A DNA stretch of 57,979 bases. It comes from an uncultured bacterium (lineage in GTDB: Bacteria; Planctomycetota; UBA1135; GCA-002748355). The DNA lies in assembly GCA_937858895.1 (NCBI GenBank), contig CALLZN010000363.1, forward strand, positions 1 to 57,979, in the 5' to 3' direction. Positions 2,126 through 56,464 of this stretch are shown piece after piece (position 1 is the stretch's first letter; each line of letters opens with the position of its first letter). The notes below the pieces were generated by a model. The model was not told the origin of the DNA. It ran no database searches and worked only from the letters and a program-made list of their open reading frames with translations. Position numbers and translations under genes: made by a program.

Positions 2126-2572
2126 TCACAGAAAGCGCAGACTCACGCCATTCGTCATGGAGCCGCCGCCGAATGCCTGGCCGCTCCCATCCACGACGAG
2201 GTACTGAAACAGAAAGTCCGTGTTGCGCAAGCGCGTGTCGTTCGGAACCGGCACAGGCACTCGTGCAATACCGAGCGTGTCGGTCGCCGTGACCCCGACG
2301 ACGATCGGTAGCACAAGCAAGTTGCACGGGCCGCCGACCGGGATCGCGGCCTGCTGTAGACCGAAGATCAAGACCGCGGGCACGTTCGGCGCCGCGCGGA
2401 AGGTCTGCCAGACGATCGTCTGACCGAGGCCGACAGCGCCGGTGAAGCCGATGTCGGGGATCTGATTTTGCGCACCAGGACAGCCGCTGCCGAAGCCAAC
2501 GAGCTGGTACTGCGAGCGCAGCGAGGCGGATGCAAGGAGGCCAAGGATGATCGAGAGGAGAATGCGCTTCAT
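2126..2572 (-). CDS. Small secreted protein with planctomycete-type exported module
   Basis: 148 residues. The start is the ATG giving MKRILLSIILGLLASASLRSQ, a clean signal peptide likely cut near SLRSQ; the reading frame stays open much further upstream but that part is antisense to the acetyltransferase. The mature part holds the pattern GFGSGC, a G-Q-T stretch, G-x-C-N-L, then PVPNDTRL followed by a Q and the ending TNGVSLRF. The same order occurs in the genes at 5917, 46663, 47858 and 49069. Probably a periplasmic or cell-surface beta protein; no enzyme motif. Divergent from the acetyltransferase at 2687. Confidence 0.75.
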   Translation of the reverse strand: MKRILLSIILGLLASASLRSQYQLVGFGSGCPGAQNQIPDIGFTGAVGLGQTIVWQTFRAAPNVPAVLIFGLQQAAIPVGGPCNLLVLPIVVGVTATDTLGIARVPVPVPNDTRLRNTDFLFQYLVVDGSGQAFGGGSMTNGVSLRFL

Positions 2573-5916: not shown

Positions 5917-7155
5917 TCAGAACCGCAAACGCACCGCGTTCGTCGCCGCGACGCTCTTCATGCTGACCGGGTCGAAGAGCAGGGTCTGCACCCACAAAGA
6001 AAAACCAACGAGTCCCGCATCGGGCACGACTGTCAAGCGGCCGCTCTGCCAGACGCCTTCTTGATCGTTCCGGTGACCAGCTTCACCGCCCTTGACATAG
6101 GTCCCGGTCACGCCAAAGACACCGGCGCCGGTGAACAGCGTCGCGAGGCCGAGGCCTGTCGGATCGACGAGCAGGCCCGCGTCGCCGAGCGCGAGTCGCG
6201 TTGTGGGCAAGGTCATCGACGACGAGACGACGAGCGGCAGCGCGCAGAGACCCTTCGAAGTCTCGTGCTGCACAAAGAGCCCGAAGAAGCCGGCACTCAC
6301 CGCCGAAGCCAGAGCATTGTCGTAAGCACCGGGCCCCTTGTGGGTCTCGATGTTGCGCGGGTCGCTGCGCACGCCTCCTGACGCATCCGAATAAAACTGC
6401 AGCGTCGCCTGGTCGAAGTAGAGCTCGATCGCGAGTTCACCCAGGTTGCTGGGCGCGTTGGTCGTGCCAAAGGGAAGGAGCTTGCGTGTGGCGCTGTCGT
6501 ACGACCCCGAGAAACTGAGGCGCCCACCATCGCGGTGGATCTCGCCGAAGCTCGGCACACACATGAAATTGGGCTGGCCGTCGCCAAGGCGTTGACCGAA
6601 GGGCGCGTAGAGGACCATGGCCCAACCCTGGGGACGCCCCCGCGGATCACGCGCCGCCAAGTCCAGCGGCGTCCGCAGGCGCGGGTCCGGCTGCTGCGGC
6701 CCGAAGCGGAAGTCGAAGTTCTGCACACCAGTGCCGAGCACCTTGTAGCCGCCGAGCTGCAGGACCGTCGTGACCGGATACGTCATGTCGGGCACGTCAT
6801 AGGTCTTGCCTTCGATCGTCACCTCGACCAGCGGGACGAAGGTCACGTCGGGCAGCGTGACGAAGGTCGGCAGCGAACCCGTGTAGCCAGCATCGACCCG
6901 AAACCCGATGCGGAAGCCCGAGATGCGCCACTTGTCGTCGCGCGCCCCGACTTCGACCGGAAAGGCCTTGTAGACGAAGTCGTCGAAGCCGCTGCCCTGC
7001 GCGCTCCGCGACCCGGGAAACTCGACCGGCGCGTCTCGACGATAGGCGTTGTCGAAGTCGAGCCGGCTGTAGGCCAGCTGGGTCGTCTGGGCGCTCGCGG
7101 TCGCGAGCATGACGGCGCCTGAGGCGGCGAGGGCGAGGATCGGAAACGTTGCCAT
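5917..7155 (-). CDS. Secreted protein with C-terminal exported module
   Basis: 412 residues from ATG 7155 (MATFPILALAASGAVMLATASAQ), a signal peptide with likely cleavage at ASA-Q. The body is beta-rich with no enzyme motif recognised; it has stretches such as VTIEGKTYDVPDMTYP and many aromatic-glycine turns. The last 45 residues (VVPDAGLVGFSLWVQTLLFD ... TNAVRLRF) follow the same plan as the end of the small secreted protein at 2126 (PNDTRL ... Q ... TNGVSLRF), so the two share a terminal module. The frame is open upstream to 7524, antisense to lysS, and is not believed. Function unknown; probably exported to periplasm or surface. Confidence 0.75.
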   Translation of the reverse strand: MATFPILALAASGAVMLATASAQTTQLAYSRLDFDNAYRRDAPVEFPGSRSAQGSGFDDFVYKAFPVEVGARDDKWRISGFRIGFRVDAGYTGSLPTFVTLPDVTFVPLVEVTIEGKTYDVPDMTYPVTTVLQLGGYKVLGTGVQNFDFRFGPQQPDPRLRTPLDLAARDPRGRPQGWAMVLYAPFGQRLGDGQPNFMCVPSFGEIHRDGGRLSFSGSYDSATRKLLPFGTTNAPSNLGELAIELYFDQATLQFYSDASGGVRSDPRNIETHKGPGAYDNALASAVSAGFFGLFVQHETSKGLCALPLVVSSSMTLPTTRLALGDAGLLVDPTGLGLATLFTGAGVFGVTGTYVKGGEAGHRNDQEGVWQSGRLTVVPDAGLVGFSLWVQTLLFDPVSMKSVAATNAVRLRF

Positions 7156-18650: not shown

Positions 18651-18818
18651 CGAGGCTTTGCCTTCCTTCAGGCCTTCTGGGGGTGGGGCCGGCCCGATCC
18701 GGTCCCCGCAATGGGCGGAACATACGCCCAACGGGTCGCTGGTGTTGGCGCCGGGCTCGGCGTTCTCGCCAGGGCTTGCTATGGTCCGGGCCTCCTTCTG
18801 CGCGAACTGACCGAAACG

Positions 18819-20717
18819 ATGCGCCGCCAAGACCTCTATCTTAGTGTTCTGACTAGCCTGCTTGCGTCCATCGCGCTCTTGCCATCGACCGCTGGCGCGC
18901 AAGACCAAGGACCGAGGACCCCTTCGAAGGTCGCCCCGGCGCGGGCGCCAGCCTTCGAGGGTGCGCAGCGCCACGTGCTGCGTCCCCGTCCCGAGCTGGA
19001 GGGCCAGCTCGATCCGCGAAACTTCTGGCAGGACCGCCTCATCGTCAAGTTCGCCGAGGGGATCGCGATGCGCCTCTCTCGCGCGCGCAGGTCTCCTGCG
19101 CGCGACTTGCAGATCGAAGCGCCGCAGCCGCGCCGGGCCGAACTCGAGGTCCTCGGTGATCGCGAAGTCGAGCCGCTCTTCTCGCGCCCGGCGAAGGACC
19201 TGGAGCGGGAACGACGTGCGCTTCGTGCCAGCCGACCCGATGCCGTGTTGGCCGACCTCGCCAATTACTATCGTGTCTTCACGGCCGGACGCGAGGACAC
19301 GCTGGCGCTCATGGCAGCGCTTGCTCGTGAGGAAGTCGTCGAGGTCGCCTACCCCGAGTTCCATCCACGAGCCATCGTCCCTGCTCAAAGCGGGACACGG
19401 CAGAGCCCCGACATCGTGACCGCGATTCGCACGCCCAGTTTCGAGGCGCGCCAAGGCTACCTCGCTTCTGCCCCGCAGGGGCTCGGCATGCTCGATGCCT
19501 CGGGCTTGCTCGGGAGCCAAGGACATGACGGCCAAGTCGTCGTGCAGATCGAGGCAGCATGGACCTTCGACCACGAAGATCTGCCGCAGCTGCGCCTCGA
19601 CCGCGTGCTCGGGCCGACGAACTTCGGCACTTGGGACATCCAAGCTTGGCGTGACCATGGGACGGCTGCCGTCGGCATTCTCGCCGCCGCGCGCGACGAC
19701 AAGGGCTTTCGTGGCATCGTGCCCGAAGCGCGGCACTACGTGTCGAGCGTCGTCTTCGGCAACGCGGATGCGGTGAGCCGAGCGACCCAGATCGCTGGGC
19801 CAGGCGATGTCTTCACGTCCTCGCTCGTCCACGCCGTCGCCTTGCAGAACCAGGGCTTCCACGCGCCCTTTGACTACCCGCAGGATGCCTACGACGCCGT
19901 TCGCATTGCGGTGGCCAAGGGCATCGTGTTCACGGTCGCGGCTGGCAACACGGGCAACGATCTCGCGAACCCGCTGCTCTACGGCTACCGCTACGCTCCG
20001 TCGGCCACCCCATCGGGTGCGTGGATCGTCGGCGCGAGCTTCCAAGGCGGCACGAAGAAAGTCTCGTGGAGCAACTACGGCGACGTCGTCCGCTTCAGTG
20101 CTTGGGGCGCTGGAGTCACTGCGCCGGCTTACGGGACGCTGTTCCGCGATCCGCTTCGACTTGGCGTGCGCGACTACACGGACATCTTTGGTGGCACTTC
20201 GGCGGCGAGCCCGCAGGTCGCTGGCGCTGCAGCGGCGATCCAGTCGACGGCTTGGATGATGAAACGCCGGACCCTCGATGTCGAAGCCCTCGCACGAGCG
20301 CTCGAACGGCATGGCACATGGATCAGCGGACGCGTCGGACCCCGGCCGGACATCGCGGGCACCCTCGTTGGCCTCGGCCTCGTAGACGGCCTCATGACGC
20401 GCGGAGACGTCGAGATCGGCGGTGACCTCGACCTGACGCTCGACCTGCGCCAGAACGAGTTCTTCGCGGTCTTCGGGTCCTCCAGGCCGATGTCACTCGC
20501 CTTGCCGGGCTTCTCCTTCCCGCTCGCGCTCGACCCGGCGCAGACCTTCGTCCTCGCGGTTGGCACGACGCAGAAGGCGGAGCCGTTCACGATCCACACG
20601 CCTCTTGCTGTCCCGCAACGATATTCCGGCGCGCGGCTCTACTTCCAGGCCATGCGCCTGGAGCGTCAGGCTCAGAACAGCGACTTCACGAATCCTGTGA
20701 GCGCGTGGTTGCGCTGA
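18819..20717 (+). CDS. Secreted S8 (subtilisin-like) protease with altered Asp motif
   Basis: 632 residues from ATG 18819; signal peptide MRRQDLYLSVLTSLLASIAL ending TAGAQ. A propeptide-like region (about 60-200, LIVKFAEGIAM ... VEVAYPEFHP) precedes the catalytic domain. His280 (DHGTAAVGILAA), Asn377 (VAAGNTG) and Ser461 (GGTSAASPQVAGAA) match the S8 family. At the Asp strand, however, the sequence reads VVVQIEAAWTFDHEDL: the residue aligned with the catalytic Asp of VAVIDTG-type motifs is Glu245. A few S8 subgroups with an IE-x-x-W-x-x-x-HEDL motif exist, as far as I recall. The C-terminal 130 residues form a beta domain. Activity is therefore uncertain. Confidence 0.88.
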   Translation: MRRQDLYLSVLTSLLASIALLPSTAGAQDQGPRTPSKVAPARAPAFEGAQRHVLRPRPELEGQLDPRNFWQDRLIVKFAEGIAMRLSRARRSPARDLQIEAPQPRRAELEVLGDREVEPLFSRPAKDLERERRALRASRPDAVLADLANYYRVFTAGREDTLALMAALAREEVVEVAYPEFHPRAIVPAQSGTRQSPDIVTAIRTPSFEARQGYLASAPQGLGMLDASGLLGSQGHDGQVVVQIEAAWTFDHEDLPQLRLDRVLGPTNFGTWDIQAWRDHGTAAVGILAAARDDKGFRGIVPEARHYVSSVVFGNADAVSRATQIAGPGDVFTSSLVHAVALQNQGFHAPFDYPQDAYDAVRIAVAKGIVFTVAAGNTGNDLANPLLYGYRYAPSATPSGAWIVGASFQGGTKKVSWSNYGDVVRFSAWGAGVTAPAYGTLFRDPLRLGVRDYTDIFGGTSAASPQVAGAAAAIQSTAWMMKRRTLDVEALARALERHGTWISGRVGPRPDIAGTLVGLGLVDGLMTRGDVEIGGDLDLTLDLRQNEFFAVFGSSRPMSLALPGFSFPLALDPAQTFVLAVGTTQKAEPFTIHTPLAVPQRYSGARLYFQAMRLERQAQNSDFTNPVSAWLR

Positions 20718-36059: not shown

Positions 36060-37088
36060 TCAACGAGCGAAGGGTCGCGTCAACTCACCACGCAAATCAC
36101 ACTGCATTTGGCGGCGAACTTCGTCCACCGCAAGGCCACGACCAAAGAGATAGCTCAACTTGGTCAAGGCAGCCTCGGGCGTCATGTCGAAACCGTTGAT
36201 CATCCCCGCTGCAGCCATCCCTCTCCCGGTTTCGTAGTCCGTGTTTGCGACGCGCCCCGACAAGCACTGCGTGCAATTGACAAGAACAACCCCCCTGTCC
36301 GTTGCCTCTCGGAGCGCCCGGGTGAAACCCTTGCTCGTTGTCGGACCGTTCCCTAGACCGTACGAGAGAATCACTGCGCCCTTGAGCGGAGGTTCGAGGA
36401 AATTCCGCAAGAACTGTTCCTGGATACCGGGAAAGAGCCACAGCACGCCGACATTGGAATCCATGCCTTCGTGGAGCTTCATCTCGGCAGCCGGAGCCGG
36501 CGCTGGCAACACGTGCTTCCAATCTACTTCGATGGCAACACCGGCTTCGGCTAGCGCAGGGTAGTTCGGCGAAGCGAAGGCCGCAAAGCTGTCACAGTCG
36601 ATCTTCCGCGTACGGCAGCCGCGTAGCAGCTTGTCATCGAAGAACACGCAAACCTCGGGGATCGCTTCTTCGGCGGCGATCAGCATCGATGTCAGCACGT
36701 TGAGCCACGCGTCATTGCGCAGTCGGCACAGAGGCACTTGTGAACCCGTCAAGACGACAGGGCACGTCAACCCTTCGAGCATGAAGGCCAACGCCGAAGC
36801 CGTATACGCCATCGTGTCCGTGCCATGCAGGATAACGATGCCATCATACTCACGCACCTTGGCCTGGATTCGCCGACCGATGCGCAGCCAGTCGTCCGGA
36901 ACCATCTCCGCCGAATCGAGCAAGGGCTCGAACTCTTCGAGGTCGAAGTCGGGAAGCCCGGGTCGAGGCAAGAACTGAGCGTTCTCGAGGGCGGCTCGGA
37001 TAGCGCCAGTGCGTGGCGCCAATCCGTGCTCACCCGGCTGCATGCCGATCGTACCGCCCGTGTGTGCGATGTAGACTCGCTTCGTCAC
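36060..37088 (-). CDS. ansA: L-asparaginase, type I
   Basis: 342 residues from GTG 37088. Hydrolyses asparagine to aspartate and ammonia; type I enzymes are cytoplasmic and form dimers or tetramers. Threonine nucleophile region AHTGGTIGMQ, second site DGIVILHGTDTMAYTASALA (TDT), and the lysine-containing region LTGSQVPLCRLRNDAWLN are seen; the C-terminal domain runs from VDWKHVL to the end (GVVLVNCTQCLSGRV). Length is the usual 330-345. Part of a leftward run following the lipoprotein gene, 82 bases apart. Confidence 0.93.
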   Translation of the reverse strand: MTKRVYIAHTGGTIGMQPGEHGLAPRTGAIRAALENAQFLPRPGLPDFDLEEFEPLLDSAEMVPDDWLRIGRRIQAKVREYDGIVILHGTDTMAYTASALAFMLEGLTCPVVLTGSQVPLCRLRNDAWLNVLTSMLIAAEEAIPEVCVFFDDKLLRGCRTRKIDCDSFAAFASPNYPALAEAGVAIEVDWKHVLPAPAPAAEMKLHEGMDSNVGVLWLFPGIQEQFLRNFLEPPLKGAVILSYGLGNGPTTSKGFTRALREATDRGVVLVNCTQCLSGRVANTDYETGRGMAAAGMINGFDMTPEAALTKLSYLFGRGLAVDEVRRQMQCDLRGELTRPFAR

Positions 37089-43676: not shown

Positions 43677-45755
43677 ATGACTCGACATCGACGACGCCGT
43701 GGGCTTTGGGTCGCCTGTGCCCTGCTCGCTTCTTGCCAAGGCACGCGCAGCCTTCGCTTCTCGGGCGGCGCGGACAAGGAGCCGCTCGTGGTCGACTTCG
43801 TCGGCAGCAAGGCCTTCGACACGCAGGTCCTTGGGCGACGACTCGGTGAGGATTTTGAGCGCGGAGTCCTGAAGCTCTCGACGCTACTCGACAGTGAAAC
43901 GCGTGACGCCGCTTCGATCGATGCGGCCAAGGCCGACTTGTGCGAGCAGCTGCGCAAGTTGCTCGTCTCCGAAGGTTATCCCGAAGCGCAGGTCACGCTC
44001 CGCCTCGAGGATGAGCGTGCGACGCGCACGCTGACGTTTTCACTGCGCGAGGGCCAGCAGCTTCGAGTCGAGGCAGTCGACTTGACCGGCAACAAGAGCT
44101 TGACGGCTGCCGAGTTGACGGGACCCTGGTTCGAGCGCAGGCGCGGCCTCGAAGGCGGCGACGCGCCGCCCTTCGTCGCGACCGAAATTGATGCACTCGC
44201 CAAAGAAATCGCTGCACGCTACCAAGCGGCGGGCTACCTCGAGGCCACGACCTCGACCCCGCAAGTCGTGCGGAGCGGCGCTTCTCCGCTCGTGACCGTG
44301 GCCATCACGGTCACCGAAGGACCGCTCTACACGATCCTGCGCACGCGCGTCGATCGTTCACTCGCCGCTGCCCTCGGCGAAGAACTGCCATCGGGTCTCG
44401 ACGGCAAGCCCTTCTCGACGTCCGAGGTCGAGAACTATCGACGCGAACTCATGCGGCGCCTGCGCGAGCGCGGCCACGCGGATCCGAGCACTTCGGTCGT
44501 GCTCGGCGCCGTCGAAGAGCAGAACGGTGTCGATGTCCTGGTCCGCGGCGAAGCCGGGCCGATCCGCGAGATCGGCGCCGTCACGGTTCGCGGTAACAAG
44601 AAGATCCGCGCCGACAATATCCTCGCGACCGCGGGCCTCTCCGTCGGCGAGACCTTCCGTGGCAGCGCAGAAGACAGGGCCTTGCAGCGCTTGCACGCGA
44701 GCAACAACTTCGCGCGCATCAAGGTGCTGCACGAGGACGCGGAGGATGGACGGCTCGCCGTCGTCTTCGAGGTCGTCGAGATGGAGCGTCCGCCGCTCGA
44801 CATCGAGGTCGGCTACGGCAGCTACGTCCGGGCGCGTGTCGGCCTACGCGTCGACGTCGAGAACTTCGCCGCAACTGGGCTCGACCTGAGGACGCTGGGT
44901 GAAGTGCACTCTCGCGGGCACGTCGTCTCGGCGTCGATCGCCCGGCGCGAGCTCTTCGAGAACACCAGAGTCGCCCTCGGTCTCGCCCATACGCGGCGAC
45001 GCCAACCGTCGTTCTCCGACCAAGTCCTCGCCGCCGAGCTCGCGTTTCAATATTCGCTCGGCTCAACGTCCGAGTTGAGCGCTGGCTATCGCTTCGAGGA
45101 CCACGGCAACTCATGGTCGGATACGAAGCAAGCCGACCTCGACCTGGCCGACCATGAGCGCAGCGTTGTCTTCGCTGACTGGAAGACCGTCGATCGCGAC
45201 CACCCGGTGCGCAGCTTCGATGGCTACAAGGCGAAGCTAGGCCTCGAATGGAGCGAGGCTTCGCTCGGCGGCGACGTCGACCTGCTCGCCGTTGGTGTCG
45301 ACATCGCTCGCTGGATGAGGCTCGGTGATCGAGTCGCGGTCAGCGCACGCTGGCGCAGCGGACTCCTCTGGTCGAAGAGCAGCGCGGCGATTCCGATACA
45401 ACACCGCATGTTCGCTGGTGGCGAGGATAGCGTCCGTTCGTTTCGCGAAGATCGCCTCGGTCCGAAGGACGCCGACGGCGAGTCGATCGGCGGTGAGTAT
45501 CGCAACGTCTTCAACCTCGAAGGCCGCTTCGTCCTCGATGATCCCTTCGACTTGATCGTCTTCGCCGATGCAGGCAACGTCGGGCGTCGTGCCGAGGACT
45601 TCGACCTGGACGGGATGCGCTACGCCGTCGGCCTCGGCCTCCAGTACTTGGCTCCTGTTCAACTGCCGCTCCGGCTGGATTTTGCCGTCAATCCTGATCG
45701 TCGAAGTGGCGAAGAAGTCTGGGTCCTTCACTTACGCATCGGCCTGCTCGACTGA
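43677..45755 (+). CDS. TamA/BamA-like outer membrane barrel with lipobox
   Basis: 692 residues, ATG 43677. The N-terminus MTRHRRRRGLWVACALLASC fits a lipoprotein signal (L-A-S-C), unusual for an Omp85 protein. About three POTRA domains: 35-110, 120-220 (LREGQQLRVEAVDLTGNKSL) and 265-355 (GAVTVRGNKKIRADNILATAGL). The C-terminal barrel (about 370-692) contains the loop-6 motif VRSF (583-586, for VRGF) and closes with LHLRIGLLD. BamA folds outer membrane proteins; TamA works with TamB. The adjacent TamB-like gene favours TamA. If the cysteine is lipidated, the POTRA end would be anchored. Confidence 0.85.
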   Translation: MTRHRRRRGLWVACALLASCQGTRSLRFSGGADKEPLVVDFVGSKAFDTQVLGRRLGEDFERGVLKLSTLLDSETRDAASIDAAKADLCEQLRKLLVSEGYPEAQVTLRLEDERATRTLTFSLREGQQLRVEAVDLTGNKSLTAAELTGPWFERRRGLEGGDAPPFVATEIDALAKEIAARYQAAGYLEATTSTPQVVRSGASPLVTVAITVTEGPLYTILRTRVDRSLAAALGEELPSGLDGKPFSTSEVENYRRELMRRLRERGHADPSTSVVLGAVEEQNGVDVLVRGEAGPIREIGAVTVRGNKKIRADNILATAGLSVGETFRGSAEDRALQRLHASNNFARIKVLHEDAEDGRLAVVFEVVEMERPPLDIEVGYGSYVRARVGLRVDVENFAATGLDLRTLGEVHSRGHVVSASIARRELFENTRVALGLAHTRRRQPSFSDQVLAAELAFQYSLGSTSELSAGYRFEDHGNSWSDTKQADLDLADHERSVVFADWKTVDRDHPVRSFDGYKAKLGLEWSEASLGGDVDLLAVGVDIARWMRLGDRVAVSARWRSGLLWSKSSAAIPIQHRMFAGGEDSVRSFREDRLGPKDADGESIGGEYRNVFNLEGRFVLDDPFDLIVFADAGNVGRRAEDFDLDGMRYAVGLGLQYLAPVQLPLRLDFAVNPDRRSGEEVWVLHLRIGLLD

Positions 45756-46662: not shown

Positions 46663-47679
46663 TCAACCCTTGCGGCAGTCGACGCTGATGCCGTTCGTCG
46701 ATTGAACGACGATGTTGCCGCCGCCGAGCGAGAGCACGACGTTTTGACCGTAGAACTTGCCTTCGAAGTCCTTCGGGAGATTGAAGCGATCCGACGTTGC
46801 ACCGCGGGCGCCAACGACTTGGCTGACCATGATCAGCGGCTGCGTGTAGAGGTAACAACGCGTCCCAGGGAATGGAACATTGATGGCCGTACCGCCGAGC
46901 ACAAGGACGGCAACGCCTCGCGGCGTGGCATTCGTCGTCGTAAAGGTCAGGACATCGCCGCTCGGCTCAACGCTCTCGCTCGCCGCGAGCACAGGTCCGC
47001 ATCCAGTGCCTACGTTCGCAAAAGTGCAACGTCCGGTGTTGCCGCCAGTCGGAATAATGTCGATCGCGAGAGTTCCGTTGTAGCTACTCGACCCGGACGC
47101 GCCGGTCGTGGCCAGACCTTCCGTTTTCATGCCGATGACGAGCCCCGCGGCCGTGGCTGTGAGTTGCCAGCGCATGGTTGCGGGAGTCGTCGAGAGCTTG
47201 GCGGACCAGTCGGGCCGGCCGTTGTTGTCGATATCGACTTCGGCGCTGACCGCGGACGTGCCCTGCATCGAGCCGCTGAGCGTGGCGATGACGTTGAACT
47301 TCGCTCCAGACTGGGCCGGGTAACGTACGACGATGCTGTGCGCACCCGGAACATAGCTTTGCGAACTATTGGAAGCGCTCGTGCCAGCGCTCGAGTTCGG
47401 CGAGTCGACCTGGGCAACTTCTTGCAGGTTGACCGTCGTCTGCGTCGAGTTCGAAAAGAGCGTCGCATAGGTCGTCGCGCCAGCCTGCCGCAGTTGTGAA
47501 GTCACGGTCATGGGGAGCCGCACTCGCATCGACGCCGCAATGAAGCTGAAGTCGGACGAGTTCGCTTGGCGCGCGAAAGACGCCACGTTCGACCCGGTTT
47601 CAACCGTGGTCTGGGCCTGGAGACCTGAGGTGAGGACGGCGAGCGAGCAAACGGATGCAACGAGATAGCTAGACTTCAC
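46663..47679 (-). CDS. Secreted protein with exported module
   Basis: 338 residues from GTG 47679 with aggag about 9 bases upstream. Signal peptide MKSSYLVASVCSLAVLTSGLQAQ. A beta-sandwich region carries DIDNNGRPDWSAK, a calcium-loop-like motif. The C-terminal 120 residues (GTGCGPVLAAS ... GTRCYLYTQPLIM ... RFNLPKDFEGKFYGQNVVLSL ... STNGISVDC) follow the same order as the proteins at 2126 and 49069: G-S/T-G-C, a second C with aromatic neighbours, then P-x-D-x-x-G ... Q ... S/T-N. Function unknown; exported. Divergent from 47858. Confidence 0.75.
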   Translation of the reverse strand: MKSSYLVASVCSLAVLTSGLQAQTTVETGSNVASFARQANSSDFSFIAASMRVRLPMTVTSQLRQAGATTYATLFSNSTQTTVNLQEVAQVDSPNSSAGTSASNSSQSYVPGAHSIVVRYPAQSGAKFNVIATLSGSMQGTSAVSAEVDIDNNGRPDWSAKLSTTPATMRWQLTATAAGLVIGMKTEGLATTGASGSSSYNGTLAIDIIPTGGNTGRCTFANVGTGCGPVLAASESVEPSGDVLTFTTTNATPRGVAVLVLGGTAINVPFPGTRCYLYTQPLIMVSQVVGARGATSDRFNLPKDFEGKFYGQNVVLSLGGGNIVVQSTNGISVDCRKG

Positions 47680-47857
47680 AGTGACTCCTGTTGGAACCTC
47701 GAGAGTGAAAACTCAGGGGAGGGGCAGCGCCATCCTACCGCCCGCATCTACGGGTGCGGCCTCCATCGGGAGATGATTGTCAGAAAGCGGTCACATCGTC
47801 GGGCGCGCCTCCGCTTCGAGGAGGTCAACGCAACCACTCAGCTTCGAAGGAGACGCC

Positions 47858-49039
47858 ATGAGACTTCACCGCACTACCCTGTTCGTCGCGTTCGTTCTCG
47901 GCATCCACGCCGCCACCACCGCCCAGAAGAGTCAATGCCTCCGGTTTGAAGTCCCTGCTGGCCAGACCGCAACAGGGACCACGTCCGACAACGCCAAGTC
48001 GCAGTTTGGCGTGAGCATCGGCGGCATCGGTATGGTGTCGATCGATGTGCCCAAGGGCGCAACTTCCAAGGACATCGTCGATGCGCTCGTCGACAAGCTC
48101 ACGAAAGAGGGCTACAAGATCCGCCGAGACGGAGACCATGCGTTCTATGTCGAGGAGGGCCCCAACGGCACGCCTATCGAAAAGGGAGGCGGCATGGGCG
48201 GCACGGACACGGGTGTCAATTCCTTGGGCACCAAGATCGTCCCCAAGAAAAATGCCAAGAAGAAGCAGAACGGCGGCATCTTCGGGAAACCCAGGGCAAA
48301 GAAGAAGGACGCCAAGGCGACCGCAACCGGGCGCATCCAGATCGACGTCGAGGTCGAGATCATCCAAGGCAACACGAAAGTGCGCGTGCACGTGCAGGTC
48401 GTCGTCCCAGTATTTCCAGGCGACACCCAAGCGGACATCGAGCAACGAGTACGCAAAGAGCTGCAGGCAAAAGGCCTGAGCCCGCGCAGCGTCACCGTTC
48501 CGTCCAATCTCGATGCAAAGACCCAACTCGAGTGCTTCGGACTCGACCGAACACTGCAAGGGGACCCGATCCTCGGAGTCGCCTGCACGATGCTCCTGCC
48601 TCCCGAATTCTATTGGCCCATGGAGTGCTTCACCGGCACGACGCCAATCTTTGGAATCACGAACGAAGGCCTTGGCAGCCAAGCTCGCGCGCCGTGGATC
48701 TACGGCGGAGATCCCTTCTTGGGGACTCTGTGGCCGCTCTTCGTCGAGGTCGGTCCTCGGCCCGTCATTGCTGGCATCTTCCTGAGCCCGCAACGCGCTG
48801 AACTAGAGATTCCGCGCTTCGGTCCAGAAGCGTGGCTCCTGGTGGATCCTCTGGGGAGCATCCTCCTGCCGATGCCCGCACCGAGCCTCGGCCGCACCCA
48901 AGTGCAGCTTCCCCTGCCGCCTGATCCCCTGCTTGGAGGCGTCGACCTCATGTTCCAAGCGGTCGTACTCGATGTCGGTACGATCCAGTTCGACACAACG
49001 GATCGCCTCGTCGTTCGACCGATTCCGATCGGCCGCTGA
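47858..49039 (+). CDS. Secreted protein, Lys-rich middle
   Basis: 393 residues from ATG 47858 with gaaggag 5-11 bases upstream. Signal peptide MRLHRTTLFVAFVLGIHAATTAQ. After two similar beta segments (VSIDVPKGATSKDIVDALVDKLTKEGYKI and VVVPVFPGDTQADIEQRVRKELQAKGL, which look like one repeated unit of about 50 residues) there is a basic stretch (KKNAKKKQNGG, AKKKDAKA). The C-terminal part has PLPPDPLLGGVDLMFQAVVLD, the same pattern as PVPNDTRL ... Q at 2126. Its stop lies 29 bases from the stop of the convergent gene at 49069. Function unknown. Confidence 0.72.
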   Translation: MRLHRTTLFVAFVLGIHAATTAQKSQCLRFEVPAGQTATGTTSDNAKSQFGVSIGGIGMVSIDVPKGATSKDIVDALVDKLTKEGYKIRRDGDHAFYVEEGPNGTPIEKGGGMGGTDTGVNSLGTKIVPKKNAKKKQNGGIFGKPRAKKKDAKATATGRIQIDVEVEIIQGNTKVRVHVQVVVPVFPGDTQADIEQRVRKELQAKGLSPRSVTVPSNLDAKTQLECFGLDRTLQGDPILGVACTMLLPPEFYWPMECFTGTTPIFGITNEGLGSQARAPWIYGGDPFLGTLWPLFVEVGPRPVIAGIFLSPQRAELEIPRFGPEAWLLVDPLGSILLPMPAPSLGRTQVQLPLPPDPLLGGVDLMFQAVVLDVGTIQFDTTDRLVVRPIPIGR

Positions 49040-49062
49040 TCGCAAACGCGAAGGCCTCGGGT

Positions 49063-49091
49063 CTCAGATCAGGCCTGGATCTTGATCTGAG
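49063..49091. terminator. Inverted repeat at a convergent gene end
   Basis: ctcagatca (49063-49071) and tgatctgag (49083-49091) are perfect 9-base arms with an 11-base loop, overlapping the stop of the leftward gene. It could end transcription from both sides. Confidence 0.45.
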
Positions 49092-49530
49092 CGATGACGC
49101 CCAACGGCGCGACACAGGTGCCGCCAAAGGTCGACAAGCAGCCGCCTTGCACGCAGAACGTACCGCCGATGAGCATCGTGTCGTTCGGGATCGGCAGGTT
49201 CACACTCGCCGTGATCGGCTTGAAGAAAGACAGATCGATGGGCGCCATCATCGTGCATGGATTCGACTGGCCGCAGCCGAACATCAGGTTCGGGATCGTG
49301 CCACAAGAAAAATTCAGCAGGACGAAGGCAAAGGTACCAGGCGAGTTGCACGGCAGTTGGCTCGCGGCGACGGTCAGTGTCTGGCCGATCTTGGACGAGC
49401 CAACAACCGGTGTGTTGGCGGCGTTCTTGCAGCCCGTGCCGTTCAGGTAAGAAATCTGCGCGCTTGCACCAACGGATAGTGCGAACGTGAACAGGATGGC
49501 GAGGGCTATCGCGACGGCAGACGTTCTCAT
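49069..49530 (-). CDS. Small secreted Cys-rich protein with exported module
   Basis: 153 residues from ATG 49530 (MRTSAVAIALAILFTFALSVGASAQ), signal peptide cut after ASA. The mature part begins LNGTGCKNAANTPVVG and contains GQTLTVAAS, FSCGTIPNLMFGCGQSNPC, then PIPNDTMLIGGTFCVQGGC. Order and motifs match the protein at 2126 (GFGSGC, GQT, PVPNDTRL ... Q), so the two are homologous. Eight or so cysteines suggest disulphides. The frame is open upstream to 49638 but without support. Confidence 0.78.
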   Translation of the reverse strand: MRTSAVAIALAILFTFALSVGASAQISYLNGTGCKNAANTPVVGSSKIGQTLTVAASQLPCNSPGTFAFVLLNFSCGTIPNLMFGCGQSNPCTMMAPIDLSFFKPITASVNLPIPNDTMLIGGTFCVQGGCLSTFGGTCVAPLGVIAQIKIQA

Positions 49531-49585
49531 GCTCGCCAGTATGCGAAGCCGCGTGCTGTCCGACAACCGCGCGGAACGCGTCACC

Positions 49586-51061
49586 TCAATCGATCGGCAC
49601 GACGAGCGCTTCGAGCCAGGGGCGAGCGCCATCGGCACGGCCGCGAAGCGTCATGCGCTGCTGAAAGAAGCGCATTCCCGTCAAGGTCGACGCATTCGTC
49701 GTCCACGGCCCCGCCCCCCTACCCATCGCGTCCAGCGCTTCACGCAGTTCGACGATGATCTCAGTGCCCGCAGGAATCGTTGCCGCGAGGATGGGTTGCT
49801 GATAGATCGGCGTAGCGCTGCCGCTATCACGCCATGGCGAAGTCGCGATGCTGGTGGCATCGACCAGATCGACCTCGAACTCGAACAGCGTGTTGTCAGT
49901 CGTCGACGCGACGTTGATCGGCGCGAGGAAGGGGTCATACGTCGATGCAGCAAAGCCAGCGGTTACGATGCGAGCATTGGGCAGCGGACTCGACGGAACC
50001 GGCAACCAAACTTGATGGCCGAGCTGACCGCTCAAGGTGCTCGTCGGCGCAACGCGGAAGTCGATGAGCAGGCTGTCGCGACCGTTGTAGCGGAAGGTCT
50101 GCACGATCGGCGGATAGGGCAGATAGCCCGATGGCGTCACCTGACTCGGCTGAATGGCCCAGGGCCCGAGGTAGACGCGACGAGGCGATGTCTGCGGCGT
50201 GATGTTCCTAGAAAAGATCGGCGACAACCCGCTCGCTGGGAAGCGCGGCAGTGACGTGAACGGATCCAACGTGAAGTCGGGCACAACAAGTGAATGCGAT
50301 AGATCGATGGCCATCCTCGTGATCAGACCCGGCGAGACATTGCCAAAGGGCCGCATGCGAAGCGCCACCACGATCTCTTCATCGCCTTTCGCCGCCAGAT
50401 CTGTCGCACGGAGCACGACTTGCTGGTGCGCACCGAAGGGACTGAGCTCGCCTACGAGCGCTTGGCCAAAGCGCGCGTGCTTGGACTTGTCCACGGTCAC
50501 GACGCTCCGCTTCTTTGCAAGCAGACCGATGAGGCGCCCGTCGGTCGTTGGCTCGAACTCACCTGAAAACCCTTCGCTAAGCGGATCGTCGAAGCGCTCG
50601 ATGTGCGCGCTCTTCGCCGAGTGGAAGGTCAAGCTCTCGCCATCCGTGCTACGGAAGATGCCGTTCGGAGAAGTCGCGTCGAGGACGAAGCCCTGCGCGA
50701 ACACGCTCGCGCCGACCAGGCTCGGCAAGTTCGGAATCGCAATCTGCCCGACGCCGACACCGTTGCCATCCGTGATGCCGATGCTGTGCGAAAAGGCGGC
50801 TGGACTCAGCTGAATGCGCAACGATTCGCCGAGTAACAGAGAGGCTTGCGGCTCGACGTCAATCCAGAGCGCATAAGCCGCCCGCGTCGCAGCAAGGACT
50901 CCGTAGGAAACGGTCTGTCCCGGCGCGATGGCTTCGGGAAGGACGCGCAGGCGCGCTTGCTGTGCGCTCACAGTTGATGCAGCCACGAGCGTGGCTGTCA
51001 AGGCGCTGATCAACGCTAGCGTCGACTTCTTTCGGTCGCAGTGGGTGTAGCTCTTAGTCAT
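49586..51061 (-). CDS. Secreted beta-rich protein
   Basis: 491 residues from ATG 51061, signal peptide with a long n-region (MTKSYTHCDRKKSTLALISALTATLVAASTVSAQ). No domain recognised. Regions such as YRPGQTVSYGVLA-type openings, LRATDLAAKGDEEIVVALRMRP and RYNGRDSLLIDFRVAP suggest beta sandwiches; the last resembles planctomycete secreted proteins with a TFRYNGRDSLLID motif. Downstream of the NuoN-like gene on the same strand, 105 bases apart. Confidence 0.68.
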   Translation of the reverse strand: MTKSYTHCDRKKSTLALISALTATLVAASTVSAQQARLRVLPEAIAPGQTVSYGVLAATRAAYALWIDVEPQASLLLGESLRIQLSPAAFSHSIGITDGNGVGVGQIAIPNLPSLVGASVFAQGFVLDATSPNGIFRSTDGESLTFHSAKSAHIERFDDPLSEGFSGEFEPTTDGRLIGLLAKKRSVVTVDKSKHARFGQALVGELSPFGAHQQVVLRATDLAAKGDEEIVVALRMRPFGNVSPGLITRMAIDLSHSLVVPDFTLDPFTSLPRFPASGLSPIFSRNITPQTSPRRVYLGPWAIQPSQVTPSGYLPYPPIVQTFRYNGRDSLLIDFRVAPTSTLSGQLGHQVWLPVPSSPLPNARIVTAGFAASTYDPFLAPINVASTTDNTLFEFEVDLVDATSIATSPWRDSGSATPIYQQPILAATIPAGTEIIVELREALDAMGRGAGPWTTNASTLTGMRFFQQRMTLRGRADGARPWLEALVVPID

Positions 51062-52873: not shown

Positions 52874-55800
52874 TCAGCGGAGGTCGCGACCTGCGACTCG
52901 GAACTGCCACTGACTCGAAGCGCCGTCCTTGACCTGCCGCTCCAACTCGACGCTACCGAGCGAGAAGGCCTCGAGGCGGACGCGATACGTGCCAGGTTGC
53001 AAGCGCCCAAGGTCGAACTCAACAGCCAAGTCTCCGCCTGGACCGAGTTCGGGCAGGGTCCAACGACCGGCACGCACGAAGCGCCCACGGTCATCGTAGA
53101 GTGCAAAAGCGATCGACTGCTTCGCAAGCGCTGGGTCCGGCTTGCCCTCGATGCGGACAACGACCGAGACTCCGTTGCGCAGCCTGACGGTAGTCGAGGT
53201 GTCTTCGCGGCCTATCACGAGAATGTCCGAGACTTCGGCGGCGTGGCCTTCAGCGTTGATGACGACACGGTAGGCGCCACTCGAGAGCCCCCCAATCGCA
53301 GCACGACCACGGTCATCGGCGAGCACGGCCTCGAAGGCACGCATGGGCCGGCCCGCGACATCGAGCAAGCGCACGCGCGCGCCGCGGGCAGGACTGCCGT
53401 CCGAGTTCTTGACGCTCACTTCGAGTTCGGCCGCCTCCTCGACGACGATCTCGACTTCGTCGAGGCTCTGCGCTTCGCCGAGGCGAATGCCGGTGCGACG
53501 TCCGGCTCGCGGTCGATCCCGCACGTCGATCTGTCGAGCCGTGAGCCCATACTCGCCGGCCATGAGGCCCTCGAAGACGAAGCCACCTTCGGCGTCCGTC
53601 ATCGTCAAGCCGTTGCCAAGGTCAAAGCTCGCGTCGACGCTGGCCTCACGCAACTCATCGACGCGCGACAAGCGCAAGAAAGCAAAAGGCACGGCGACAC
53701 CATCGCTCGTGACGACACGGCCCCGGATGCGACCCGCAGGCAGCTCCAGGTCGATGCGCTGCTCGCGCTGCTCGGCCTCGACCCGCACCGTCGCACCATC
53801 CGAGCTACCGGCATCGAAGAGCGAAGCGCGCACACGCGTGCGGTAGGCACCAGGTGCAAGGGCATCGAAGCGGTACGCCCCCGCCTTGATGGTCGCGAAG
53901 GAGCGGCCCTCGGTACCGATCGCTTCGAACTCGACGATGCCGTCTTCGAGGGGACGCCCCCCCATCGTGACGCGACCAAGGACCCGCCGCGCAGATGCAG
54001 CCTCCCCATCCACCTGACTCGCGATCAGCTCGAAGGTCGCTCGGCCCGCCGGCGGCACATGCACCTGCGACACGACCATCGCGCGCATGCTCTCACTGAT
54101 GAGCTTGCCGATGTCAGGCCCCTTCCCGAAGCGGGAGCCTTGCATCGACTCCCGGCCGACCTTGTCGAAGAACGAAGAGGGCAGCGCCTCGACTCGGTAG
54201 TCACCAGCCGCGATCGCTTCGAAGCGCACATTGCCGTTCTCGTCCGTCTTGCGCGACAACTGAACGCCACGCGCCATCGACTTCAACGACACGAGCCAAT
54301 CGCTGACCGGACGCTGTTGATCGTCGACGACGCGGCCCTCGACGATCGAACCGCGATCCAGGACGAGCTTGATCGGCCCGGTAACCTTGCCCTTCTCCAC
54401 GACGACGGGCTCGCTGCGCAAGGGCGCGTATCCTTCCTTCTCGACGTGCAAGCGCGTCTTGCGCGCGGGCAGCCCCACGAGCTCGAAAGCACCGTCCGCT
54501 TCGGTCGTGACGCCGCGATCGCCGCGCATCCACGCCATCATCTTCATGTCCGCCATGCCGCCCTTCGAGACGCGCACGGTTGCGCCTTCGATCGCCTTGT
54601 CGTCGACGTCGACGACGTTGCCGCGGAGGGAAGACGGTGGCGCGAGAGCGACGACTCCGACATCGACTTGCTCTGTTGCGGACGTGATCTTGACGCGCAC
54701 GGTCTGCGGCGCGCGGTCGGCGGCTTCGATCTGCAGCGTGTGATCGCCGAGGGGAAGCTGAGTCAGCGTAAAACCCCCGCCGGTCGCTTGTTCTTGCCGA
54801 CCGCGTTCGGACTCGAAGAAGACCATGGCACGCGACACGGCGCGGACCTTGAAGTCCTCGACGGCCTGGCCGTCCTCTTCGCGCACGACGCGCCCACGAA
54901 CGGAGCCGAGCTGCTGAAGCTCGATGACGACGTCATCGGCCCCGATCTCGGCCACGAGAGCCGCGGGAGAGTGGCCGCTCTTCGATGCAACGAGGCGCAC
55001 GCTCTCGTCGCCTTCGAGCCCGCGCAACTCGAAGCGCCCTTCCTCGTCGGTCGTTACCGCTCGCTCGAGCGAGGCGGCCACCATCGCGGCCTCGGGCACG
55101 AAGGAAGCGACATCGAAGCCCATGACCTTCTGCCCCAAGAGCGGCGCAGCACCAACCTTTGCGCCGACGACCGGAGCCTCACCTTCATCGATCACACGGC
55201 CGCGCACGGACTTGCCGTGATCGAGCACGAACTCACGCACGACGCTGAGACCGGCGTCGAGCCTCACTTCGGCCTCGAAGGGAACGAAGCCCTGAGCGAC
55301 GATCTTGATCGCGCAAGGCCCCGGCGGAAGGGAATCCAAGACGACCCGGCCGTCATCCGCTGAGCGACCGCGCGCTGTCCTGGACTCGATCTCGTCGACT
55401 CGCAGCGCCAGGGCGTCATTGGATATCGCTTGAACGGCGATCCTCGCGCCAGACACAGGCTGTCGCTCATCCGAGAGAACGGTGACTTCGAGCTTGGCCG
55501 CCTTCGTCAGTTTGACGCGTGCGACGCGGGAATAGCCCGGCGTCAGATTCACCATGGTGCTCGCGGGACCGTGGCCATCGGCGCGAACGTCGACCTCGAC
55601 GCTCCCCGCTCGGTCGATCGCGTTGAGCTTCGCGATGCCGCTGGCGTTCGTCCGCGCCTCGATCTTCCGCATCAGGCGCTCGAGTTGACGAAAGTCGAAC
55701 ATGCCCGTCTCGAAGTTGACGAAGGCCATCGGGTTGAAGGGCGTCGACAAGCGCACGCGCGCTCCGTCGACAGCGTGACCATTCGCGTCTTCGACGACGA

Positions 55801-56464
55801 CGACGAGGGCCGAAGCCAACTCGCACGGGATGTCGCCAAGTTCGACGACACGCTGGTCGCTGCCTCGAGGCCTCCCAGGCTCCGTCTGCGTCGCCGGCTC
55901 CGGCTCCGGCAAGGCCTCGATGCGGACATCGTCCGTGAGCCTCGCGATTCCGTGCTGGAGCTCGAGCTCGATCGCTCCCCGGAACGAAGTCGAGACCTCG
56001 AAGCTGCCGTCGTCGGAGATCGCCGCGCTCGCGAGGCGCGTCGGTTCGCGCCCGAGTTCGCGCAAAGCCCCCGAGCGCATGGAGTTCTCCATGTCGTTCC
56101 ACGCGCTGCGCATCACCTCGAACATCGCCGCCTCGTAGTCGGGGCCGGACTCGAGGATGGCGACCGTGCCTTCGCTGAGTTTGACGGGTGCGCGAAGGCG
56201 GCCGCGAATCACTCGCTGGTCTGCGGTCTTGCCGACGCGCGCTTCGTCGCCAAGCGTGACTGCTTTGGAGAGGCGTCGCGCATTGCCTTCGACTTCGATT
56301 GACGCTCCGCCCGCATCTTCGATCGCGATGTCGCCGCCTTGCGCTGGCGTCGTGCTCGTGTCGCTGACACTGGGCCGGCCCTCGTCCTGCTTCGATCCAA
56401 AGAGCCACCATGCCAAGAAAGCAAACAGCGCGAAGGTCAAGAAGGCGATCGTGATTCGGCGCAT
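52874..56464 (-). CDS. Large CarboxypepD_reg-repeat envelope protein
   Basis: 1196 residues, ATG 56464. One N-terminal hydrophobic helix (RITIAFLTFALFAFLAWWLF), either signal or anchor, then a Ser/Thr/Ala-rich linker. From about residue 210 on, at least eight carboxypeptidase-regulatory-like/Ig folds are repeated, each with a pattern V-x-G-R-V-V-D-x-x-x-x-P-V-x-G-A-x-V and D-x-x-G-x-F-x-L/F-x-G-L (SVRGRVIDEGEAPVVGAKV, DEEGRFELRGLEGDE, TEADGAFELVGLPARK, TDENGNVRFEAIAAGDY, TDAEGGFVFEGLMAGEY). No peptidase domain. Such proteins are surface or periplasmic scaffolds. The 40-base gap suggests co-transcription with the NuoN-like gene. Confidence 0.8.
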   Translation of the reverse strand: MRRITIAFLTFALFAFLAWWLFGSKQDEGRPSVSDTSTTPAQGGDIAIEDAGGASIEVEGNARRLSKAVTLGDEARVGKTADQRVIRGRLRAPVKLSEGTVAILESGPDYEAAMFEVMRSAWNDMENSMRSGALRELGREPTRLASAAISDDGSFEVSTSFRGAIELELQHGIARLTDDVRIEALPEPEPATQTEPGRPRGSDQRVVELGDIPCELASALVVVVEDANGHAVDGARVRLSTPFNPMAFVNFETGMFDFRQLERLMRKIEARTNASGIAKLNAIDRAGSVEVDVRADGHGPASTMVNLTPGYSRVARVKLTKAAKLEVTVLSDERQPVSGARIAVQAISNDALALRVDEIESRTARGRSADDGRVVLDSLPPGPCAIKIVAQGFVPFEAEVRLDAGLSVVREFVLDHGKSVRGRVIDEGEAPVVGAKVGAAPLLGQKVMGFDVASFVPEAAMVAASLERAVTTDEEGRFELRGLEGDESVRLVASKSGHSPAALVAEIGADDVVIELQQLGSVRGRVVREEDGQAVEDFKVRAVSRAMVFFESERGRQEQATGGGFTLTQLPLGDHTLQIEAADRAPQTVRVKITSATEQVDVGVVALAPPSSLRGNVVDVDDKAIEGATVRVSKGGMADMKMMAWMRGDRGVTTEADGAFELVGLPARKTRLHVEKEGYAPLRSEPVVVEKGKVTGPIKLVLDRGSIVEGRVVDDQQRPVSDWLVSLKSMARGVQLSRKTDENGNVRFEAIAAGDYRVEALPSSFFDKVGRESMQGSRFGKGPDIGKLISESMRAMVVSQVHVPPAGRATFELIASQVDGEAASARRVLGRVTMGGRPLEDGIVEFEAIGTEGRSFATIKAGAYRFDALAPGAYRTRVRASLFDAGSSDGATVRVEAEQREQRIDLELPAGRIRGRVVTSDGVAVPFAFLRLSRVDELREASVDASFDLGNGLTMTDAEGGFVFEGLMAGEYGLTARQIDVRDRPRAGRRTGIRLGEAQSLDEVEIVVEEAAELEVSVKNSDGSPARGARVRLLDVAGRPMRAFEAVLADDRGRAAIGGLSSGAYRVVINAEGHAAEVSDILVIGREDTSTTVRLRNGVSVVVRIEGKPDPALAKQSIAFALYDDRGRFVRAGRWTLPELGPGGDLAVEFDLGRLQPGTYRVRLEAFSLGSVELERQVKDGASSQWQFRVAGRDLR

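Follow-up and report, generated by a model that had tools for sequence, protein, structure and literature searches.

Exported proteins of the uncultured planctomycete to which the window belongs (the whole stretch of DNA analysed, 57,979 nucleotides) share a domain of about 120 positions that is most likely undescribed and is absent from the protein-family databases searched. By analogy, we judge it somewhat probable that this is a C-terminal sorting or attachment domain which works much as the T9SS CTD does while standing outside that family. The family is real and far larger than first described, and the function put forward for it here is our reading of the evidence. The original prediction had named five proteins, at 2126, 5917, 46663, 47858 and 49069, with signal peptides and a common C-terminal module; their ORFs were found at these positions, and each begins with an N-terminal signal peptide that is typical by eye. 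The proposal that these exported beta domains form a single expanded family is supported, as a profile recovers its members and an Ig-like beta-sandwich is predicted, and so is that of differing N-terminal additions, the cargo being very varied.

No pair of window proteins cross-matched directly in phmmer, and because pairwise detection failed, the 2126 protein alone was used as a query on the whole genome of the window (5.77 Mb, 449 contigs, 87.6% complete), where it gave 88 matching places at E ≤ 1. A profile of 30 domains, to which the 2126 protein was the sole contributor from the window, the rest coming from other contigs, was run on all window ORFs and matched the proteins at 47858 (E = 1.2e-13), 46663 (E = 4.8e-12) and 49069 (E = 3.3e-9), the N-terminal part of the 49586-51061 protein (E = 8.3e-11) and the C-terminal part of the subtilase at 18711-20717 (E = 6.5e-4, then 4.8e-10 after iteration with a profile that includes window members), in each case over most of the roughly 120 positions. 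Reversed ORFs from an unbiased genome sample gave zero matches even at E < 1, against 24–25 for the real ones. Since the profile recovers the window members and reversed ORFs give none, the observation is more than chance, and at the level of sequence the reported module is a real family whose members differ from the earlier list, which had overlooked two window copies (Table 1). The neighbouring genes at 46663, 47858 and 49069 do not form one operon because that at 47858 lies on the + strand.

Table 1 Copies of the domain in the window and the proteins that carry them
Feature	Position	Strand	Protein and remarks
Domain copy	2135..2491	-	Ends the 148-aa protein 2126-2572, otherwise signal peptide only; AlphaFold2 model
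Exported single-domain protein	2126..2572	-	MKRILLSIILGLLASASLRSQ; signal peptide by eye
Divergent copy, approximate bounds, predicted helical insertion	5920..6309	-	C-terminus of the 5917-7155 protein
Domain copy	20391..20702	+	Ends the subtilase (Peptidase_S8) 18711-20717; overlooked earlier
Domain copy	46681..46998	-	C-terminus of the 46663-47679 protein, whose N-terminal ~200 aa have no assigned family
Domain copy	48674..49015	+	C-terminus of the 47858-49039 protein (start ATG 47858); strand opposite to that of its neighbours
Domain copy	49123..49440	-	151-aa protein 49069-49530 (start ATG 49530); signal peptide and domain only; Cys-rich
Domain copy	50627..50941	-	Follows the signal peptide of the 49586-51061 protein directly, as an N-terminal copy; gene next upstream of 49069, same strand; overlooked earlier

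The end of the 49586-51061 protein may hold a degenerate second half-copy (3.7 bits). Near the domain-bearing cluster at 46663-51061, an Omp85/BamA-TamA-like outer-membrane protein with POTRA domains is encoded at 43677-45755 on the + strand (PF01103, E = 7e-29). On the - strand, 52874-56464 encodes a 1,196-aa protein, probably a surface protein, with eight CarboxypepD_reg-like domains and no match to the domain within it, and 36060-37088 an ordinary asparaginase/glutaminase (PF00710, E = 1e-56).

The claim of a shared C-terminal module thus stands by profile for the proteins at 2126, 46663, 47858 and 49069, the last three of which were recovered by the profile search, and is marginal for the 5917 protein, which matched the 30-domain profile at E = 0.018 with an alignment covering the second half only. 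We count 5917 as a divergent member, not a proven one, because its orthologues support it: those in seven related genomes show a clearer core (P-[VI]-P-N-D...L-x-G...Q...SN), and the best of them matches the iterated profile at E = 1.3e-5. Profile–profile comparison (hhalign) gave 87% probability over the C-terminal 51 columns. When the AlphaFold models of 5917 (pLDDT 76) and 2126 were compared loosely, by strand order, the last five elements agreed (strand, short helix, long strand, strand, strand), with an additional helix inserted ahead of them in 5917. The motifs originally listed fit 2126 and 49069 nearly in full and the other three proteins incompletely: the G-S/T-G-C start is absent from 47858 and 5917, G-Q-T from 46663 and the second Cys of the domain from 47858.

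Five genes proved a large underestimate of family size. Profile searching placed at least 150 copies in the genome (150 of 355 candidates were scored, and 150/150 matched at E < 1e-6), and a sample of 40 contigs taken at even spacing (475 kb) has 25 copies, which extrapolate to about 304 per genome, with a bootstrap 95% interval of 190–422; assuming roughly 5,000 genes, an estimated 1 protein in 16 would carry the domain. Across the phylum, 56 of 294 genomes match at E < 1e-6, many of them with at least 14 copies each, and no genome of the same order is among the non-matching genomes listed (218 of those without a match lie outside this list). Used as a query on contig records, the consensus returned 590 pattern matches with no relative among them, and it had no match in plasmid records; an alignment of seven closer members found 15 loci, of which 14 have Planctomycetota in their titles and the other belongs to an unplaced bacterium. 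Apart from that bacterium, the matching named records come from metagenome assemblies of Planctomycetota, for example HKST-UBA76, HyVt-539 and DOLJORAL78_63_9. Presumably, similar C-termini also occur in cultivated planctomycetes of the same part of the phylum.

The consensus of 169 copies reads GsGCaGsggavPtlsgsgaPtlGttftltlsgappssaavLllGasrtnlpLPapGCtLyvdpdllllavatdanGaaslplPiPndpsLvGatfyfQalvlDaaaNalGltfSNGleatIG. Three of its positions are nearly invariant among these domains (P85, 93%; Q98, 93%; G92, 90%), followed by G76 and L90, and mean pairwise identity is 24%, a divergence so high that any common recognition surface must be small, which weighs against sorting. Among copies with the first Cys position aligned, Cys4 and Cys57 covary perfectly: the second is present wherever the first is (72/72), and where the first is absent both are (9/9). 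This pattern indicates a predicted Cys4–Cys57 disulfide, which fits an exported protein. AlphaFold2 predicts the 2126 copy to be an all-beta, nine-stranded, Ig-like beta-sandwich (pLDDT 96, pTM 0.88). Foldseek found nothing below E = 1e-3 in PDB and BFVD and returned generic Ig-like folds only, with best TM-scores of about 0.5; the best PDB fold match, to an S-layer protein, is weak (E = 5e-3). No family in Pfam, NCBIfam or PDB sequences, carbohydrate-binding modules included, matches the domain, and a search of the open literature found no description of it.

Position within the protein is strongly biased. Among C-terminally complete members in the same genome, the domain lies at most 5 residues from the protein end in 106 of 153 and at most 20 in 117 of 153; the evenly spaced sample of 40 contigs gave 22 of 25 within 20 residues. 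The corresponding values for other Planctomycetota genomes are 49 of 52 (at most 5 residues) and 51 of 52 (at most 20), from 35 loci (20 from the whole-genome set and 15 named records) that are best matches and may favour canonical members. About 30 of the 153 own-genome members have 25–50 extra residues after the domain, and in six, including 49586-51061, it lies near the N-terminus and far from the C-terminus. A handful of proteins (2126, 49069, L029) consist of signal peptide and domain only, with nothing to sort. In none of 157 own-genome and 53 other proteins did a second copy rise above the threshold used. In the tailed members (such as L010, L016, L018, L074, L085 and L132) the tail often ends in a strand resembling the final hairpin of a companion domain of about 180 aa. 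By eye this suggests that the domain may be inserted before that hairpin, but profile scores gave the idea no support: excision of the domain raised the companion-profile score by more than 3 bits in 1 of 28 cases, the same as with shuffled tails.

The proteins that carry the domain are otherwise diverse. Of 121 complete ORFs, 97 passed a crude signal-peptide test. Comparison of 151 N-terminal regions linked 65 in a single set and gave 14 small clusters besides, with 38 regions left as singletons; among the cargo families are subtilases, FG-GAP, kelch, laminin-G-like, lamin-tail, CotH, M64 and M12 peptidases and ELWxxDGT repeats. An 820-aa ORF (L107:169-2628, contig C36 of genome G000) combines nine CxxCH heme motifs with the C-terminal domain, a multiheme cytochrome for which surface display is possible. 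The name of the NCBI choice-of-anchor families refers to their varying C-terminal anchors. These families (NF041895, V; NF041940, X; TIGR04312, B) define cargo, and they take in cargo families found in this genome; members of V and X, above cut-offs, bear the domain at the anchor position, so that it occupies the place where other species have anchors. In one V member the family match spans residues 113–257 and the domain residues 283–415 of 417.

That the domain sits at the C-terminus, occurs once per protein, follows diverse cargo and takes the anchor position together argues for sorting or attachment. Planctomycetota of this lineage would place one domain of about 120 residues, usually disulfide-bonded, at the extreme C-terminus of hundreds of unrelated Sec-exported proteins; after Sec export and removal of the signal peptide the domain would fold in the periplasm, and one common envelope component would recognize the folded domain, which would then direct or fix the cargo at the cell surface, as the T9SS CTD does in Bacteroidota. 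We infer export from the signal peptides and the predicted disulfide, and we further infer the common recognition machinery and the surface fate of the cargo. The more specific proposal, that planctomycetes have a secretion or surface-attachment system not yet described, in which a dedicated envelope machine reads the folded, disulfide-bonded C-terminal sandwich as its cargo signal and handles about 300 proteins per genome, is tentative, and we would sooner doubt it than adopt it. Tailed members, N-terminal copies and signal-peptide-plus-domain proteins argue against a strictly C-terminal signal, and the finding of no partner gene for the domain counts against sorting. Small CTD proteins exist in T9SS organisms, for example Fjoh_0547 with 112 aa (PMC7712824); thus, signal-peptide-plus-domain copies do not exclude sorting.

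Unrelated Sec-exported proteins end in the T9SS CTD, an Ig-like sandwich (PMC4804311, PMC11285876), and the present domain resembles this CTD (TIGR04183/TIGR04131, Bacteroidota) in its predicted Ig-like antiparallel beta-sandwich, extreme C-terminal position, occurrence once per protein, unrelated Sec-exported cargo and very divergent sequence. Unlike the CTD, which has about 70–90 residues (67–88 when cleavable), it has about 120, with a conserved Cys pair and the motif P-x-P-N-D-x-x-L-x-G...Q...D...S-N-G. PEP-CTERM is likewise a C-terminal homology region that recurs in numerous exported proteins of a single genome (PMC1569441), but consists of a motif of about 25 residues, a transmembrane helix and a basic tail, whereas our domain is predicted to be folded and has no such tail. 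A planctomycete-specific signal for surface proteins, RRLxxExLExRxLLA (PF07595; PMC8567305), is similar in being a sorting signal special to planctomycetes; it is N-terminal and short, unlike the domain, has been described in Rhodopirellula and Tuwongella, and had no match, nor had any other family, in a Pfam search of the window members. The shared C-terminal Ig-like sandwich could suggest a diverged branch of a known signal, but 28 members had no match, even at E < 1, to the NCBIfam models for T9SS CTD, PEP-CTERM, GlyGly-CTERM and MYXO-CTERM, the greater length and the lack of the transmembrane and basic tail found in the last three also speak against it, and we regard this already disfavoured reading as very improbable. 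Membership in the T9SS CTD family was rejected for want of a profile match and because the genome, at 87.6% completeness, has no match to Por_Secre_tail (TIGR04183; control positive in two genomes) or PorV_fam (control positive); SprA had no match in the genome, nor in any control. PEP-CTERM was rejected as an account of the domain on its single match above cut-off in the whole genome (C102:765-836, L232), the single exosortase (C132:19540-20307, L171; E = 1.6e-46) and the lack of a PEP-type tail. This exosortase is a near-orphan sortase. That the bulk alternatives are missing in this way supports sorting.

As the most serious rival we consider a terminal binding or adhesion module, which would attach outside the cell to a matrix polymer (polysaccharide, S-layer or sheath) and hold diverse enzymes and adhesins near the surface with no dedicated secretion machinery. 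Such a module would easily tolerate N-terminal, pre-tail and stand-alone copies, Ig-like sandwiches often serve as binding scaffolds, with an S-layer protein as the weak best PDB match here, and high divergence would suit varied ligands; however, the single copy per protein, without tandems, is unlike adhesive or carbohydrate-binding repeats and supports sorting, as does the strong C-terminal bias across families, and the lack of any carbohydrate-binding family match and the merely generic Ig-like fold matches also speak against this rival, which we hold to be unlikely. The carbohydrate-binding half of the original guess at function, with no Pfam match, only generic folds and one copy per protein, gained no positive evidence, and its cell-surface sorting half is the best explanation. 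We give still less credence to a structural cap, in which a C-terminal Ig-like domain would stabilize proteins against proteolysis or aid folding and have no role in localization: the compact predicted fold, the covarying cysteines and the very different cargo agree with it, but single-domain secreted copies and use at the choice-of-anchor position would be left unexplained, and the extreme copy number would be unusual for a passive cap.

Should about 300 exported proteins of one bacterium share this domain, whatever handles it may be needed by almost all surface or secreted enzymes of the lineage. With a profile of the domain, the exported proteomes in a little-studied section of the Planctomycetota can be annotated at once, and how proteins are moved to and held at the unusual planctomycete envelope becomes a question directly testable with one tagged reporter.
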